In this document: positions 13,876-19,646 of the stretch, in pieces
Layout of the letters: the number at the start of each line of letters is the position of its first letter
Numbering within the stretch: position 1 is the first letter of the stretch
From: Emcibacter sp.
Lineage (GTDB): Bacteria; Pseudomonadota; Alphaproteobacteria; Sphingomonadales; Emcibacteraceae
Direction of reading: 5' to 3'
NCBI GenBank assembly: GCA_021774785.1
Contig: JAJFIQ010000023.1
Location: forward strand, 1-64,000
Length of the DNA: 64,000 nucleotides
The notes under the pieces: model-generated
What the model was told of the DNA's origin: nothing
Seen by the model: only the letters and a program-made list of their open reading frames with translations
Database searches by the model: none
Made by a program: the position numbers and the translations under genes

Positions 13876-14730
13876 ATGCTGAAAAAAATAAGACAACTGC
13901 TGGCACAGATTCCGCTGCCACTCTTTCAAAACCCTAGCCCTGTGGTCGCTATCCTGCCTTTGGAAGGGGTGATCGGGTCCGGTAGCCGTTTCTCGGCGGC
14001 TCTAAATCTGGCGGGGATCGAAGAAAAAATTAGTCAGGCCTTTGATGTTTATAACGTTAAGGCGGTGGCCCTTGCGGTAAATTCGCCTGGCGGATCACCC
14101 GTGCAGAGCGAATTGATCATGCGCCGCATACAGAAATTATCACAAGAAAAGAAAATTCCGGTCTATGCCTTTGCCGAGGATGTGGCGGCATCAGGTGGCT
14201 ATCTTATCTCATTGGCAGCGGAAGAAATTTATGCCCATGAAGCCTCCATCGTAGGCAGTATCGGTGTAATTTCTGCGGGCTTTGGCTTCAGCAAGGCCAT
14301 TGAGAAAATCGGCGTGGAGCGGCGGGTTTATGCGGCGGGTGATAATAAATCTATCCTCGACCCATTCCAGGCGGAAAAGGATAAGGACATCAAGCTGCTG
14401 AAAGAAATGCAGAAGGAAATCCATGAATTTTTCAAAAATCTGGTGAAAGAAAGCCGGGGCGACAAGTTGAAAGGCACACAAAAGGTCATGTTCTCCGGCC
14501 AGTTCTGGGCCGGGAAAGAAGCCGTGAAACTGGGCCTTGTTGATGGCATTGGTGATATTCATACGGTCATGAAGGAAAAGCTGGGCGATAAGACTAAATT
14601 CAAGCGGATTAAAGAAGAAAAAGGCTTGATTAAAACTATGCTCGGCATGAGTGTCTCAAAGCCTAAAATAAGTGAGGAAATCCTGGCTACTCTGGAAAAC
14701 CGTTCTCTGTGGAGCCGCTTTGGGCTATAA
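13876..14730 (+). CDS. S49 family peptidase (SppA/SohB-like)
   Basis: A 284-residue serine peptidase of family S49, the short single-domain form. The nucleophile is Ser106 in VAASGGYLI, and the catalytic Lys is most likely Lys158 in VYAAGDNKSILDPFQ. The oxyanion-forming NSPGG occurs at 69-73. There is no good signal peptide or strong membrane segment; a short hydrophobic stretch near 25-33 is the first strand of the domain, so the enzyme may be cytoplasmic or loosely membrane-bound. The family degrades signal peptides or membrane-protein fragments. It ends a group with DUF2007 and the TrmN6-like gene. Confidence 0.9.
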   Translation: MLKKIRQLLAQIPLPLFQNPSPVVAILPLEGVIGSGSRFSAALNLAGIEEKISQAFDVYNVKAVALAVNSPGGSPVQSELIMRRIQKLSQEKKIPVYAFAEDVAASGGYLISLAAEEIYAHEASIVGSIGVISAGFGFSKAIEKIGVERRVYAAGDNKSILDPFQAEKDKDIKLLKEMQKEIHEFFKNLVKESRGDKLKGTQKVMFSGQFWAGKEAVKLGLVDGIGDIHTVMKEKLGDKTKFKRIKEEKGLIKTMLGMSVSKPKISEEILATLENRSLWSRFGL

Positions 14731-14863
14731 AATTCATATATGCCAGATATTTGATTTTTATGGAATAGTTTAAATATTTTTGTGTTTTGATATATATGGA
14801 ACATTAGATAATATTTGTATTATGCATATATAACATCTCAAAGCTTTATATTTAGGATTTTAT

Positions 14864-16474
14864 GTGGCCAAGTTAGCAGTTTTTACGGGTGATTTGAACT
14901 TCTGTGTGATTAGAGGCATTTTTGATATTTTAGATGCTATGTCTGAAATTGAAAAAATCATTATTATTGAACAAAAACCAAAATTTTCGATTCATAAAAA
15001 AATTAAAAGTCAAAAATTTAATATCAAAAAAAATGGTTGGCGTTGGATATTCCATATTCTCGTAACCATGCTAAAATTTTTGATAATTAAAAAAAATATT
15101 CCGAATAATAGACGTTCGGGAGAGAAATATACTTTCGTAAATTTAACAAATCATCCGTCCGTTGAATATCATGCGTATACTTCAATTCATTCTGAGGCGT
15201 GCCTTTCTTTGATTGAAAATGAAAAGGTGGATTTAGGCATTTCACTTGCAGCGCCTATATTGAAAAAGGAATTATTTTCACTGCCGCTTCTTGGCACAAT
15301 AAATTTGCACAAAGGAAAATTGCCTAACTATAAGGGCATGCCCGCAGGATATTGGGAAATACATAATGGTGAATCTGAGGTCGGTGTAAGCGTCCATGAA
15401 ATAGTTGAGGGGCTAGATGCCGGAGATATTTTGTTGGAAGATGATATCCCGATTTTTAAATTTTCGACGGCAAGCGGTGTGCGGGTACAGCTAGATGAAC
15501 TAGGAATTCAGCTGGTAACCAATGCGGTTTCTAAAATACTTAATGGGGATGCCGTTTTTTCACAACAGGAAGGTTCGGGTAAGATTTACCGCAAACCCAC
15601 GTTGAAAGAATATTCGATCGAAAATAAAAGAATCCAAAAACTAGAAAATATTAATCTTAAAAAAGAATTTGCTAAAAAACATATTATGAATTTCTATGTT
15701 GCTTATAGAAATTTTTTAAAATTTTTTTTAAAAAAAGAAAGAAGGAATGCTGTTTCAATTCTATTGTTTCACCGTGTATCAGATGAGTTTAGAGATAGCG
15801 TAACTATTGGTGTGGAACAATTTGATTTATTAATAGGGTATTTGGCGAAAAATTATCAAATATTGACACTGGACGATATCCTTTCTCACAAACCGACTAT
15901 AGGTATTAGGCCCTATGTGGTTATTACTTTTGATGATGGCTATTTGGATAATTATTTAAACGCGGCACCCATATTGTTAAAGCACGGTGTGTCGGCAACT
16001 TTCTTTATTTCCACTGATAAAATTACTAACAATACCGCCTTTGATCATGATGTGAAAATGCTGGGAAGGGGGTTGGACAATATGAACTGGGATCAGGTGC
16101 GGAAAATGAAAGAATGGGGCTTTGATATAGGAAGCCATACCGTAACACATCCCCGTTTATCAAAATTAGATACTTCATCGCTTAAAATGGAATTGGAAAA
16201 ATCACAATTAACAATAAAAGAAGAACTGGGCATTAAAAATGTTAAATTTGCCTATACATATGGCGGGACTGAAGATTTCACCATGGAAGCTAGGAAAATG
16301 GCGGAAGAATTAAAATATACTTGTATTTGCTCTGCTTACGGTGGGGTAAATAATGTTCCTGTAAATCCATGGAATCTTAAGCGGTTTGGCGTAAATTTTG
16401 CGCTGAAAATTCATTCAGTCGATGCAAAAATAGCGGGTTGGCAGGACAAAGAAAATAATCCGGGTTGGCTTTGA
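14864..16474 (+). CDS. formyltransferase / NodB polysaccharide deacetylase fusion
   Basis: A 536-residue protein with two catalytic modules. The N-terminal part (about 1-260) is a formyltransferase of the Fmt/ArnA/sugar N-formyltransferase group: the motif TINLHKGKLPNYKG gives the Asn and His, and GLDAGDIL gives the Asp of the catalytic triad. The C-terminal part (about 290-520) is a NodB-type deacetylase: LLFHRV, TFDDGY with the metal Asp pair, and SHTVTHPRLS with two metal His. The start is GTG at 14864 with AGGA upstream; the overlapping ATG at 14862 closes at once. The gene is far more AT-rich than its neighbours (about 20% GC at 14941-15000), so it was probably acquired. It likely edits an amino group on a surface sugar, by analogy with ArnA and ArnD. 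Confidence 0.85.
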   Translation: MAKLAVFTGDLNFCVIRGIFDILDAMSEIEKIIIIEQKPKFSIHKKIKSQKFNIKKNGWRWIFHILVTMLKFLIIKKNIPNNRRSGEKYTFVNLTNHPSVEYHAYTSIHSEACLSLIENEKVDLGISLAAPILKKELFSLPLLGTINLHKGKLPNYKGMPAGYWEIHNGESEVGVSVHEIVEGLDAGDILLEDDIPIFKFSTASGVRVQLDELGIQLVTNAVSKILNGDAVFSQQEGSGKIYRKPTLKEYSIENKRIQKLENINLKKEFAKKHIMNFYVAYRNFLKFFLKKERRNAVSILLFHRVSDEFRDSVTIGVEQFDLLIGYLAKNYQILTLDDILSHKPTIGIRPYVVITFDDGYLDNYLNAAPILLKHGVSATFFISTDKITNNTAFDHDVKMLGRGLDNMNWDQVRKMKEWGFDIGSHTVTHPRLSKLDTSSLKMELEKSQLTIKEELGIKNVKFAYTYGGTEDFTMEARKMAEELKYTCICSAYGGVNNVPVNPWNLKRFGVNFALKIHSVDAKIAGWQDKENNPGWL

Positions 16475-16650
16475 AAGCCATAAGAGTTCACTGTTTTTAC
16501 TCAAATATTATTTAGGAAAATGTAGGGGCCTTTATATGAAAGCGCAATACAGTTTCTTATATGTCGGATTCAATCCTTGACGGGCAGGGGTCCACCCAGT
16601 AATTTCCTGCTATAAAATGCATCTATAAGCGAAGAAAGAAACAAGGTCAG

Positions 16651-17547
16651 ATGGGTGGTTCACCACGAAATCAAAATGCGTTCCAGACGCTTATCCTGAA
16701 ACTACAACAATATTGGGCCGAACAGGGCTGCGTTATTCTGCAACCCTACGATCTGGAAATGGGTGCCGGAACCTTTCAGGCAACGACCACATTGCGTTCT
16801 TTAGGCTCGAAACCGTGGAAGGCGGCTTATGTGCAACCTTGTCGCCGTCCAACCGATGGCCGATACGGCGAAAACCCAAACCGACTGCAACATTATTACC
16901 AGTTTCAAACCGTCCTCAAACCATCGCCCGATAATATTCAGCAGCTTTATCTGGATAGCCTTGCGGTGTTGGGTATTAACGCGCTGGAGCATGACATCCG
17001 TTTTGTGGAAGATGACTGGGAAAGCCCGACGCTGGGCGCGTGGGGGCTTGGCTGGGAGGTTTGGTGCGATGGGATGGAGGTGAGCCAGTTTACCTATTTT
17101 CAGCAGGTCGGCGGCTTTGACTGCAAGCCTGTGACGGGGGAGCTGACTTACGGCCTGGAGCGGCTCGCTATGTATATTCAGGGGGTGGATAATGTTTATG
17201 ATCTGGACTGGAACGGTTTGCCAAAAGATCAAGGGGGCGTAACTTACGGCGATGTGTTCCTGCAGAATGAAAAAGAATTCTCCGCCTATAATTTTGAGCT
17301 GGCCAATACGGAAAGACTGTTTCAGCATTTCAAAGATGCCGAGGCTGAGTGTAACGACATATTGGAACAGGGCAATTATCCTCTGCCTGCTTATGACCAA
17401 TGTATCAAGGCATCCCATGTCTTTAACCTGCTGGATGCGCGCGGCGTGATCAGTGTTACCGAACGGGCGGCCTATATCGGCCGGGTGCGGGCACTGACAA
17501 AGGCTTGTTGCAAGGCCTATCTTATTTCTATTGGGGAAGCAGAATAA
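16651..17547 (+). CDS. glyQ: glycyl-tRNA synthetase alpha subunit
   Basis: A 298-residue alpha subunit of the bacterial alpha2beta2 glycyl-tRNA synthetase, the catalytic subunit that makes glycyl-adenylate. The start region [17 protein letters not shown] and the class II motif stretches [15 protein letters not shown] and [22 protein letters not shown] are all present, as is [11 protein letters not shown]. Length is normal. The ATG is preceded by AAGG. The stop codon overlaps the glyS start in TAATG, so the subunits are translationally coupled. The 176 bases upstream hold the promoter, and I see no T-box or riboswitch. Confidence 0.97.
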
Positions 17548-19646
17548 TGGCTGAGTTTTTATTAGAGTTGTTTTCCGAGGAAATTCCCGCCCGCATGCAG
17601 GCCAAAGCAGCCGATGATTTGAAACGCCTTGTCACGGGCAAGTTGAAAGACGCCGGCCTAAAGCATGGTCAGGCCGATGCCTATGTTACCCCGCGCCGTC
17701 TGTGCCTGCTTATTGCGGGCTTAGACAGCGAACAGCCGGATATTTCCGAGGAACGTCGCGGCCCCCGCGCCGATGCACCGCAGAAGGCGATTGAAGGTTT
17801 TCTGCGCGGCGCAGGTGTGACCCAAAAGCAGGTCGAAATCCGCGAAGAGAAAAAAGGCACTTTTCTTTACGCCATTATTGAGCGCAAAGGCCGGAAAACA
17901 TCAGACGTGCTGGCGGAATTTTTACCCGATATCATCAAAAATTTCCCTTGGCCCAAATCGCAACGTTGGGGTGAAAAGTCGCTGCGTTGGGTACGTCCCT
18001 TGCATAGCATCCTGTGTTTGATGGACGGTGAAGCCGTGTTTTTTGATCTGGGCGACGGATTGCAATCTGGCAATCAAAGTCAGGGCCATCGCTTCTTGGC
18101 CCCTGAAACATTCGTAGTATCCACCTTCGCCGATTATAAGGCACATCTGGATGCGGCAAATATCATGCTCAATCCCGCAGACCGGAAAATATTGATCAAG
18201 GCGCAAGCCATAAAGCTGGCGAAAGATGCCGAACTAAACCTATTGGAAGATGAAGGCCTGTTGAACGAAGTCGTGGGCCTCGCCGAATACCCCGTAGTGC
18301 TGATGGGGGAATTCGACAAAGAATTTCTCGACGTGCCACAGGAGGCCTTAACCAGTGCCATGAAAAGCCATCAGAAATATTTCTCTGTGGTGGACGATGA
18401 CGGCAAGCTCGCCAACAAATTCATCTTCGTTTCCAACATGAAGACGGATGACAAGGGTGCCAAGATCATCGACGGCAATGAACGCGTCCTCCGCGCCCGC
18501 CTAGCCGATACCAAGTTTTTCTGGGATCAAGATTTGAAGATAACCCTAGATGACCGCTTTCCGGCTCTTGAGGATATTGTATTTCATGCCAAGCTAGGAA
18601 CAGTTGGAGAGCGGGTCGAACGACTTGTAAAATTATCAGGCTACATTGCAGAAAAAATTGGTGCCGATGTGGAGCAGGCGAAACGTGCAGCCCAATTATG
18701 CAAGGCTGATCTGGTGTCTGGTATGGTAGGTGAGTTCGCTGACCTTCAAGGCCTAATGGGTAAATATTATGCTGAAGAACAGGAGGAAACTGATGTGGTT
18801 GCCAATGCCATTGCAGATCATTATTCACCTAAAGGACCACATGATCAATGTCCATCAAATTTGGTAAGTGTATCTGTAGCCTTAGCAGAAAAGTTAGATT
18901 CATTAGTTGGTTTTTTTGCGGCAGATGAAAAGCCGACAGGATCAAAAGATCCTTTTGCGCTACGCCGTGCAGCACTTGGAGTTGTTCGGTTAATACTTGA
19001 AAATAACATTCGGCTAGATCTTGTTGATGTTTTTTCTAAGGCCTATGATTGTTTCCTTAATCAAAAAATATTTAAGAATGGTGTGTATTCTATTTCAGAA
19101 ATTATCGAATTTTTACGAGATCGTATGAAGGTTCTTTTAAGAGATGAGGGAATAAGTCATGGGATAGCATCTGCGGTCTTAGAAGTTGAACAGAAACCTG
19201 ACCTTGTAAGGTTAATGAAACGAATTACGGCTCTTCAGAATTTTTCTATCGTAGATGAAGATGATAGTCTTCTAGAGGGATATAAACGGGCTGCATATAA
19301 ACACCTTCTAGTCGGATATAAAAGAGCGGCTAATATTCTCAAAGTTGAAGAAAAGAAAGATGGCCCTATAACAGGGGATGCTAGTGCTGGCACGATGCCG
19401 GAGGAAAAAGAATTGTTCGCACAGTTGACAAAAGTAGCAAACCTAACTGTGGTGAATATTGAAAGTGAAAATTTTGAAGGTGCCATGGGAAACCTTGCCA
19501 CATTGCGCACCCCCATTGATGCTTTCTTTGATAAGGTTACGGTGAATAGTGATAACGACGAAGAGCGGCAGAACAGATTGCGGTTGCTTGCACAAATCAG
19601 AAGTACAATGAACAGGGTTGCGGATTTTTCTAAAATAGAAGGCTAA
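17547..19646 (+). CDS. glyS: glycyl-tRNA synthetase beta subunit, mosaic composition
   Basis: The 699-residue beta subunit, which binds tRNA-Gly. It begins [18 protein letters not shown], holds the HD-like central part (MKSHQKYF, DGNERVLRARLADTKFFW, GKYYA) and ends in the anticodon-binding DALR domain (NLATLRTPIDAFFD). The start is the ATG overlapping the glyQ stop; an upstream frame to 17505 is spurious. Two oddities: GC falls from about 67% at 17761-17820 to about 33% at 18841-18900 and 28% at 19081-19140, then recovers near 19500; and a 12-residue stretch LLEGYKRAAYKH / LLVGYKRAANIL is present twice, where other GlyS proteins have one copy. The frame is intact and the gene is presumably functional. 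Confidence 0.95.
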   Translation: MAEFLLELFSEEIPARMQAKAADDLKRLVTGKLKDAGLKHGQADAYVTPRRLCLLIAGLDSEQPDISEERRGPRADAPQKAIEGFLRGAGVTQKQVEIREEKKGTFLYAIIERKGRKTSDVLAEFLPDIIKNFPWPKSQRWGEKSLRWVRPLHSILCLMDGEAVFFDLGDGLQSGNQSQGHRFLAPETFVVSTFADYKAHLDAANIMLNPADRKILIKAQAIKLAKDAELNLLEDEGLLNEVVGLAEYPVVLMGEFDKEFLDVPQEALTSAMKSHQKYFSVVDDDGKLANKFIFVSNMKTDDKGAKIIDGNERVLRARLADTKFFWDQDLKITLDDRFPALEDIVFHAKLGTVGERVERLVKLSGYIAEKIGADVEQAKRAAQLCKADLVSGMVGEFADLQGLMGKYYAEEQEETDVVANAIADHYSPKGPHDQCPSNLVSVSVALAEKLDSLVGFFAADEKPTGSKDPFALRRAALGVVRLILENNIRLDLVDVFSKAYDCFLNQKIFKNGVYSISEIIEFLRDRMKVLLRDEGISHGIASAVLEVEQKPDLVRLMKRITALQNFSIVDEDDSLLEGYKRAAYKHLLVGYKRAANILKVEEKKDGPITGDASAGTMPEEKELFAQLTKVANLTVVNIESENFEGAMGNLATLRTPIDAFFDKVTVNSDNDEERQNRLRLLAQIRSTMNRVADFSKIEG
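19269..19340 (+). repeat. 36-bp tandem duplication inside glyS
   Basis: Copies at 19269-19304 and 19305-19340 both begin CTTCTAG and share GGATATAAA at the same offset; they have since diverged. The result is an extra 12 residues with the GYKRAA motif repeated. It lies inside the low-GC block of the gene. Confidence 0.7.

Follow-up and report, generated by a model that had tools for sequence, protein, structure and literature searches.

A rare fusion of a formyltransferase with a NodB deacetylase domain in Emcibacter and its possible role in N-acyl exchange

Sugar N-formyltransferases, among them the ArnA domain, TDP-3-aminoquinovose N-formyltransferase, VioF, WlaRD and PseJ, use amines made by an aminotransferase, and the usual account of N-formyl sugars is the formylation of such an amine, with 10-formyl-tetrahydrofolate as the donor known for the formyltransferase family. 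In the pathway for 4-amino-4-deoxy-L-arabinose, the amine is masked by the formyltransferase of ArnA, a protein that also carries a fused dehydrogenase, and is set free again at a later step by ArnD. The aminotransferase account leaves unexplained those N-formyl groups whose nitrogen derives from GlcNAc, as does the N5 of 5-N-formyl-legionaminic acid. This sugar is documented in Halorubrum together with a proposed formyltransferase (PMC6137143); the main text of that paper proposes no deacetylase, and the word "deacetylase" occurs nowhere in it. As far as that text goes, 5-N-formyl-legionaminic acid is a precedent product for acyl exchange, the replacement of N-acetyl by N-formyl. Flagellin glycosylation islands also contain formyltransferases, and the word deacetylase is absent from the available text of the two papers concerned (PMC4875605, PMC5109656). 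A search of open-licence PubMed Central papers found no description of an acyl-exchange route to N-formyl sugars. Papers on Helicobacter canadensis and on rhizobial siderophores in which both terms occur were, in their available parts, unrelated to the fusion described here.

The window analysed here is a stretch of 64,000 nucleotides from an Emcibacter genome (contig JAJFIQ010000023.1), and it carries a gene that joins a formyltransferase and a NodB deacetylase (Table 1). We consider it moderately probable that the product works in the cytosol as a bifunctional N-acyl exchanger. Its NodB domain, at the C-terminus, would deacetylate the nitrogen of an amino sugar, the likely substrate being a nucleotide-activated or lipid-linked precursor, and the N-terminal domain would formylate the freed amine from 10-formyl-tetrahydrofolate, so that an N-formyl sugar would be made with no aminotransferase devoted to it. 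In contrast to the described sugar N-formyltransferases, whose amine is made by an aminotransferase, the amine would here arise by deacetylation. We infer the order of the reactions, the substrate, the donor and the membrane contact raised below, as well as the cytosolic location, the last because no signal sequence is evident by eye.

Table 1. Features of the fusion gene and its flanks, in window coordinates.
Feature	Coordinates	Strand	Remarks
S49 peptidase gene, left flank	13876..14730	+	Pfam
Upstream part of insert	14731..14863	.	133 bp, 19.5% GC
Formyltransferase-NodB fusion gene	14864..16474	+	536 aa, GTG start, single ORF without internal stop
Formyltransferase half, residues 1-255	14864..15628	+	Pfam match at residues 107-220
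Basic amphipathic stretch, residues 56-76	15029..15091	+	Hydrophobic moment 0.56; gapped in Fmt-like alignment rows
Motif N147-x-H149	15302..15310	+	Formyltransferase triad
D185	15416..15418	+	Formyltransferase triad
H303, motif 5, N-terminal end of domain (NodB2 order)	15770..15772	+	His in 84/86 rows, gaps in 2
NodB (Polysacc_deac_1) match, residues 350-487	15911..16324	+	Pfam
D357 D358, motif 1	15932..15937	+	86/86 rows
H425 and H429, motif 2 metal ligands	16136..16150	+	76/86 (Gln in 10) and 86/86 rows
T465, motif 3 (AYTYG)	16256..16258	+	Pro in 83/86 rows
Conserved glyQ promoter-like block, right-hand limit of insert	16570..16610	+	Present at empty sites too
glyQ, right flank	16651..17547	+	Named in an earlier note and by eye; one matching unit in the relatives

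The fusion gene and its two halves

An earlier note on this DNA had described a formyltransferase and a NodB deacetylase, normally separate, joined in one protein with both active sites intact. One open frame does hold both domains, each above its curated Pfam cut-off: Formyl_trans_N (E 5e-14, 52.8 bits against 26.1) and Polysacc_deac_1 (PF01522; E 2e-24, 86.5 bits against 23.1). A counterpart that is 72% identical was found in one other genome of 60 (own included), the same-genus MAG G012 (NVVY01000048.1, NORP51), and the GTG start codon stands at the same position in both. An AlphaFold model of the fusion, built on a two-row alignment, reached a mean pLDDT of 31.

The formyltransferase half matches solved sugar N-formyltransferases, with which it shares the Formyl_trans_N domain and the triad Asn-x-His ... 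Asp (N147-H149-D185). It differs from them in an extra basic stretch, and the C-terminal formyltransferase domain was not found in the window protein with Pfam. Residues 1-106 lie outside the Pfam match and include this amphipathic stretch, which may possibly make contact with the membrane. With 66.1 bits against a cut-off of 201.5 for TIGR00460, the Fmt equivalog, the protein is not Fmt by cut-off; NF005998 (ArnA) gave 53.2 bits, under its cut-off of 777, and the dehydrogenase domain is absent.

Of the residues that mark the NodB2 (PgaB-like) group, the deacetylase half has a motif 5 His before motif 1, the Asp pair, the two motif 2 His residues and an Arg (R507), and it departs from the group at the Pro of AYPYG, which is replaced by T465. 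The topology in which the motif-5 His precedes motif 1 is set out in a passage on motif order in PMC10967932. The best NCBIfam matches of this half were the PgaB and IcaB models, both under their equivalog cut-offs (TIGR03938, 50.3 bits against 321.9; TIGR03933, 42.1 against 248.35). It resembles the NodB2 poly-N-acetylglucosamine deacetylases PgaB and IcaB in its N-terminal motif 5 and its AYxYG motif, and is set apart from them by scores far below the cut-offs, by its place behind a formyltransferase domain and by the motif-3 Thr. Among the 86 aligned rows that Thr occurs only in the window protein and its relative, the relative being counted twice. Thus the claim that both active sites are intact stands for the metal, acid/base and catalytic Asp/His residues, and has to be qualified at motif 3 of the deacetylase, where the substitution could impair or redirect the enzyme.

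Both halves are under purifying selection. Between the window and G012 copies, dN/dS (NG86) was 0.105 over residues 1-255 and 0.073 over residues 354-535, and the flanking genes gave 0.058 (S49), 0.063 (GlyQ) and 0.078 (methyltransferase), all of these being rough estimates at a dS of 1.0-2.1, near saturation, with residues 256-352 and GlyS without a dS value. These figures bear on the reading that T465 has abolished or altered the activity of the deacetylase half, leaving a protein that would effectively be a formyltransferase. The conservation of Pro in nearly all aligned rows, with Thr confined to the two fusion copies, speaks for it; the low ratio over residues 354-535 and the retention of every metal and acid/base residue speak against it, and we hold it to be quite improbable.

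Deacetylase partners of related formyltransferases

All genome searches and counts reported here cover the window's own phylum. Full-protein searches of overlapping sets of 60, 385 and 246 genomes (own included), with matches listed at E <= 1e-15 for the 385 and 1e-14 for the 246, showed the fusion only in the window genome (G000) and, as a split copy, in G012. The one further listed match that spanned both halves, in G149, was rejected as another fusion and is two genes. No plasmid record reached 80% query coverage among 885 matching of 72,556, nor did any phage record among 24 matching of 50,697; viral contigs yielded no relative with profiles A1 and A2, and profile A5 found four NodB-like loci there at 23-27% identity.

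The two enzymes are indeed normally separate, as the earlier note had it, and the separate genes are often adjacent. Formyltransferases were collected with profile A1, seeded with the window, G012, G140 and G149 sequences (two of these seeds are paired, and one was chosen for its adjacency). Across 385 genomes of the class and 398 of the phylum (own included) the profile found 56 distinct loci. Leaving out the three seed loci L103-L105 gives the 53 non-seed loci counted here; matches with no assigned locus, each weaker than 1e-20, lay outside the partner scan and were likewise left out. A NodB gene lies adjacent to or overlaps the formyltransferase in G139, G109, G067, G102, G371, G595, G517 and G584, and the seeds G140 and G149 are likewise paired, giving 10 pairs in all; in G741 the formyltransferase stands with a NodB of the DUF3473 type. 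Counting the YdjC fusion of G117 described below, a deacetylase partner was present at 9 of the 17 loci with E <= 1e-20 and at 1 of the 36 weaker ones (Fisher p 5e-5), and outside the clade of NulO-type pairs at 3/9 against 1/36 (p 0.02); these p values are descriptive only, since the rows are related. ArnA loci count as unpaired because the NodB scan does not see ArnD. The unpaired members of the 17 are G434, G163, G178, G192, G726, G679, G532 and G490, the last with a neighbour that matches DUF7033 only. In G434 and G163, close relatives of the NulO-type formyltransferases, no NodB, PIG-L or YdjC was found within 18 kb (134 ORFs).

The formyltransferase tree has long branches and groups the window sequence weakly with G584 (91/83), which carries Ser at the catalytic Asn; no single origin of the pairing can be claimed from such a tree. 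These pairs contain the same two domain families as the window fusion, in genes that are adjacent or overlapping, and differ from it in being two proteins and, in several cases, in lying in nonulosonic-acid-type clusters. The G149 pair is accompanied by DegT aminotransferase, epimerase, cytidylyltransferase, NeuB and GNAT genes, and NeuB-like ORFs (by eye) occur at G139, G109 and G067 as well as at the unpaired G434 and G163. The G140 pair stands alone beside flagellar hook-like genes (by eye). The fusion protein is real, under selection and rare, and its two enzymes are elsewhere often neighbours.

Deacetylases of other families take the place of NodB at some loci. On an Antarctobacter plasmid, a PIG-L gene overlaps a formyltransferase with an intact triad. 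The window's own genome holds, on contig C22 (L176:15626-19116), overlapping genes for a UDP-GlcNAc 2-epimerase, a formyltransferase, a PIG-L protein and NeuB, this formyltransferase having Gly at the catalytic Asn. On contig C83 of G117 (L227:5503-7353), YdjC and a formyltransferase with an intact N-H-D triad form one chain of 616 aa within a glycan-type cluster. Like the window protein, the G117 chain joins a deacetylase-family domain to a formyltransferase; it differs in the deacetylase family, in its opposite domain order and in its position inside a cluster.

Pfam places NodB, PIG-L and YdjC in separate families, and the fold of PIG-L differs from that of NodB. ChbG we take to be YdjC-like. 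The de-N-acetylase role of the three families is read from their names and, for ChbG, also from a passage of PMC10967932, which gives ChbG a NodB-like fold; on that passage YdjC is remotely related to NodB, and so is not a fully independent partner.

Other joined formyltransferases were of different kinds. One ORF of G040 (L232:2621-4336) combines an Fmt-like formyltransferase, complete with C-terminal domain, and a tRNA pseudouridine synthase, and in G165 (L230:2301-4109) and G044 (L233:1822-3543) a formyltransferase-like N-terminal half, recognised by our own profile and without a Pfam formyltransferase match, precedes a GINT1_N glycosyltransferase domain.

Reaction order and a possible general route to N-formyl sugars

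The earlier note had called the NodB half ArnD-like and had set two orders side by side, formylation followed by deformylation, as in the trapping of lipid-linked aminoarabinose, and deacetylation followed by formylation. The likeness to ArnD did not hold: NF011923 (ArnD) scored 440 bits with a real ArnD as positive control and gave no match to the window protein at E <= 1. Six of the ten pair NodBs tested also failed to match it (searched to 1e-5), their best models being PgaB or IcaB for five and PdaB for that of G517. ArnD itself belongs to another NodB group than the window half and, by the name of NF011923, deformylates.

In an Arn-type trap, the formyltransferase would mask the free amine of a nucleotide sugar, to be unmasked by the NodB half after transfer to lipid. 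Genes for a formyltransferase and a NodB-fold enzyme do stand side by side in the Arn pathway too, the ArnA and ArnD genes of G656 overlapping by one base (ArnA and ArnT assigned by eye, ArnD by NF011923), so that adjacency alone cannot decide the reaction order; moreover, basic amphipathic stretches offer the protein a possible means of reaching the membrane. However, the NodB half is PgaB/IcaB-like and leaves the ArnD model unmatched, BLASTP with an ArnD aligns 15 residues only (E 0.018), and a search of the window genome for ArnT and ArnD gave no match at E 0.001. PIG-L and YdjC are de-N-acetylase families by name, and a single chain that carried both opposing activities would be prone to futile cycling. 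We regard the Arn-type trap as unlikely, and the lipid-trapping reading of the earlier note was not borne out. The coupling of formyltransferases to three deacetylase families, together with the lack of an ArnD or ArnT match, instead favours the other order that it had put forward, deacetylation and then formylation, as an exchange of N-acetyl for N-formyl.

Another reading gives each half its own target, a separate amine or a separate sugar of one glycan, with the fusion serving co-expression only. Some pairs do lie in diamino-sugar-type clusters (NeuB-type nonulosonic acids), whose products have two nitrogens and possibly different acyl groups; yet a fusion and overlapping genes that involve three deacetylase families suggest consecutive steps, and we think separate targets rather unlikely.

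The preferred reading, N-acyl exchange by consecutive deacetylation and formylation, might extend beyond this protein. A general route to N-formyl sugars could consist of acyl exchange by a formyltransferase and whichever de-N-acetylase is available (a NodB of the PgaB kind, NodB/DUF3473, PIG-L or YdjC), encoded in an operon or as a fusion; such a generalisation is close to an even call, leaning slightly towards doubt. Nor would we go further than this same tentative grade in holding that the route concerns nitrogens descended from GlcNAc and that the window protein is its one-chain NodB form. For the N-formyl groups that the aminotransferase account leaves aside, a deacetylase-formyltransferase module would be an answer from two ordinary enzymes. 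The fusion points to a single-protein device that would exchange one sugar decoration for another, allows acyl-exchange coupling to be tested directly on one purified protein, and leads to a rule for genome mining, by which a formyltransferase beside NodB, PIG-L or YdjC predicts an N-formyl sugar.

The S49-glyQ site and the age of the fusion

The insert runs from the stop codon of the S49 gene to the conserved promoter-like block of glyQ. Since the fusion gene is alone at this locus, its neighbours reveal no substrate. The earlier note had given the region about 20% GC in part, which fits the gap upstream of the gene and the lowest 200 bp (22%); it does not fit the coding halves, at 36% and 34% GC against 48-52% in S49 and glyQ. 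A promoter scan found 10 candidates against 9.1 expected.

The S49 orthologue was found in 27 of 32 family genomes, of which 25 are informative for the site, G014 and G022 having been excluded as their contigs end too early. The site is without a recognised gene in 14 of the 25: eight genomes of the genus (G009, G008, G006, G001, G015, G003, G007 and G010), five further short-gap sites (G016, G019, G023, G025 and G018), and G017 (L213:1006-1500), where the gap of 495 bp (59% GC) has an inverted repeat towards its ends and resembles a small repeat element. The 11 occupied sites hold the fusion in G000 and G012, NodB and a sulfotransferase in G013, a G013-like NodB in G024, G029, G027 and G021, NodB and a glycosyltransferase-like ORF (by eye) in G020, where glyQ lies beyond the fetched stretch, a sugar-transfer ATP-grasp gene with unknown genes in G005 and G011, and a methyltransferase-like ORF (by eye) in G026. 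The gap between S49 and glyQ (window 14731-16570) is a hotspot for varied glycan-related genes. A tie between the fusion and the G013-type NodB of the hotspot was considered and rejected, the two being 26-30% identical and the G013 gene lying on the opposite strand.

The earlier note had taken the gene for a recent acquisition. This was not upheld: the G012 copy (L036 and L037) has the same S49 and glyQ neighbours as the window copy, and because the relative shares the locus a recent transfer was rejected. The dS of the fusion is near saturation and within the range of the flanking genes, and the fusion gene is most likely older than the divergence of the two species.

In G012 the frame is interrupted at the TFDDG motif by an inserted sequence. 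A 95-base end of this insertion matched G012 in 10 places, one of them incompletely, and in 8 of the 10 the match stopped at the very end of a contig; G000, G009 and G013 gave no match. The sequence that breaks the copy is a multicopy insertion element. The earlier note had named a fusion that is always silent as grounds for refutation; the copy in the window genome is intact, and the sole relative found is the one disrupted by this element. The element lies at the end of L038, at the start of L037 and at nine further places in G012, and its two ends have in common an inverted repeat of the AGACTC type.

Further along the window, at about 18900-19500, a stretch within glyS is AT-rich (37% GC) and highly variable; this internal part of the glycyl-tRNA synthetase beta subunit has few conserved columns in five congeners, whereas glyQ is about 90% identical between the window and G012.
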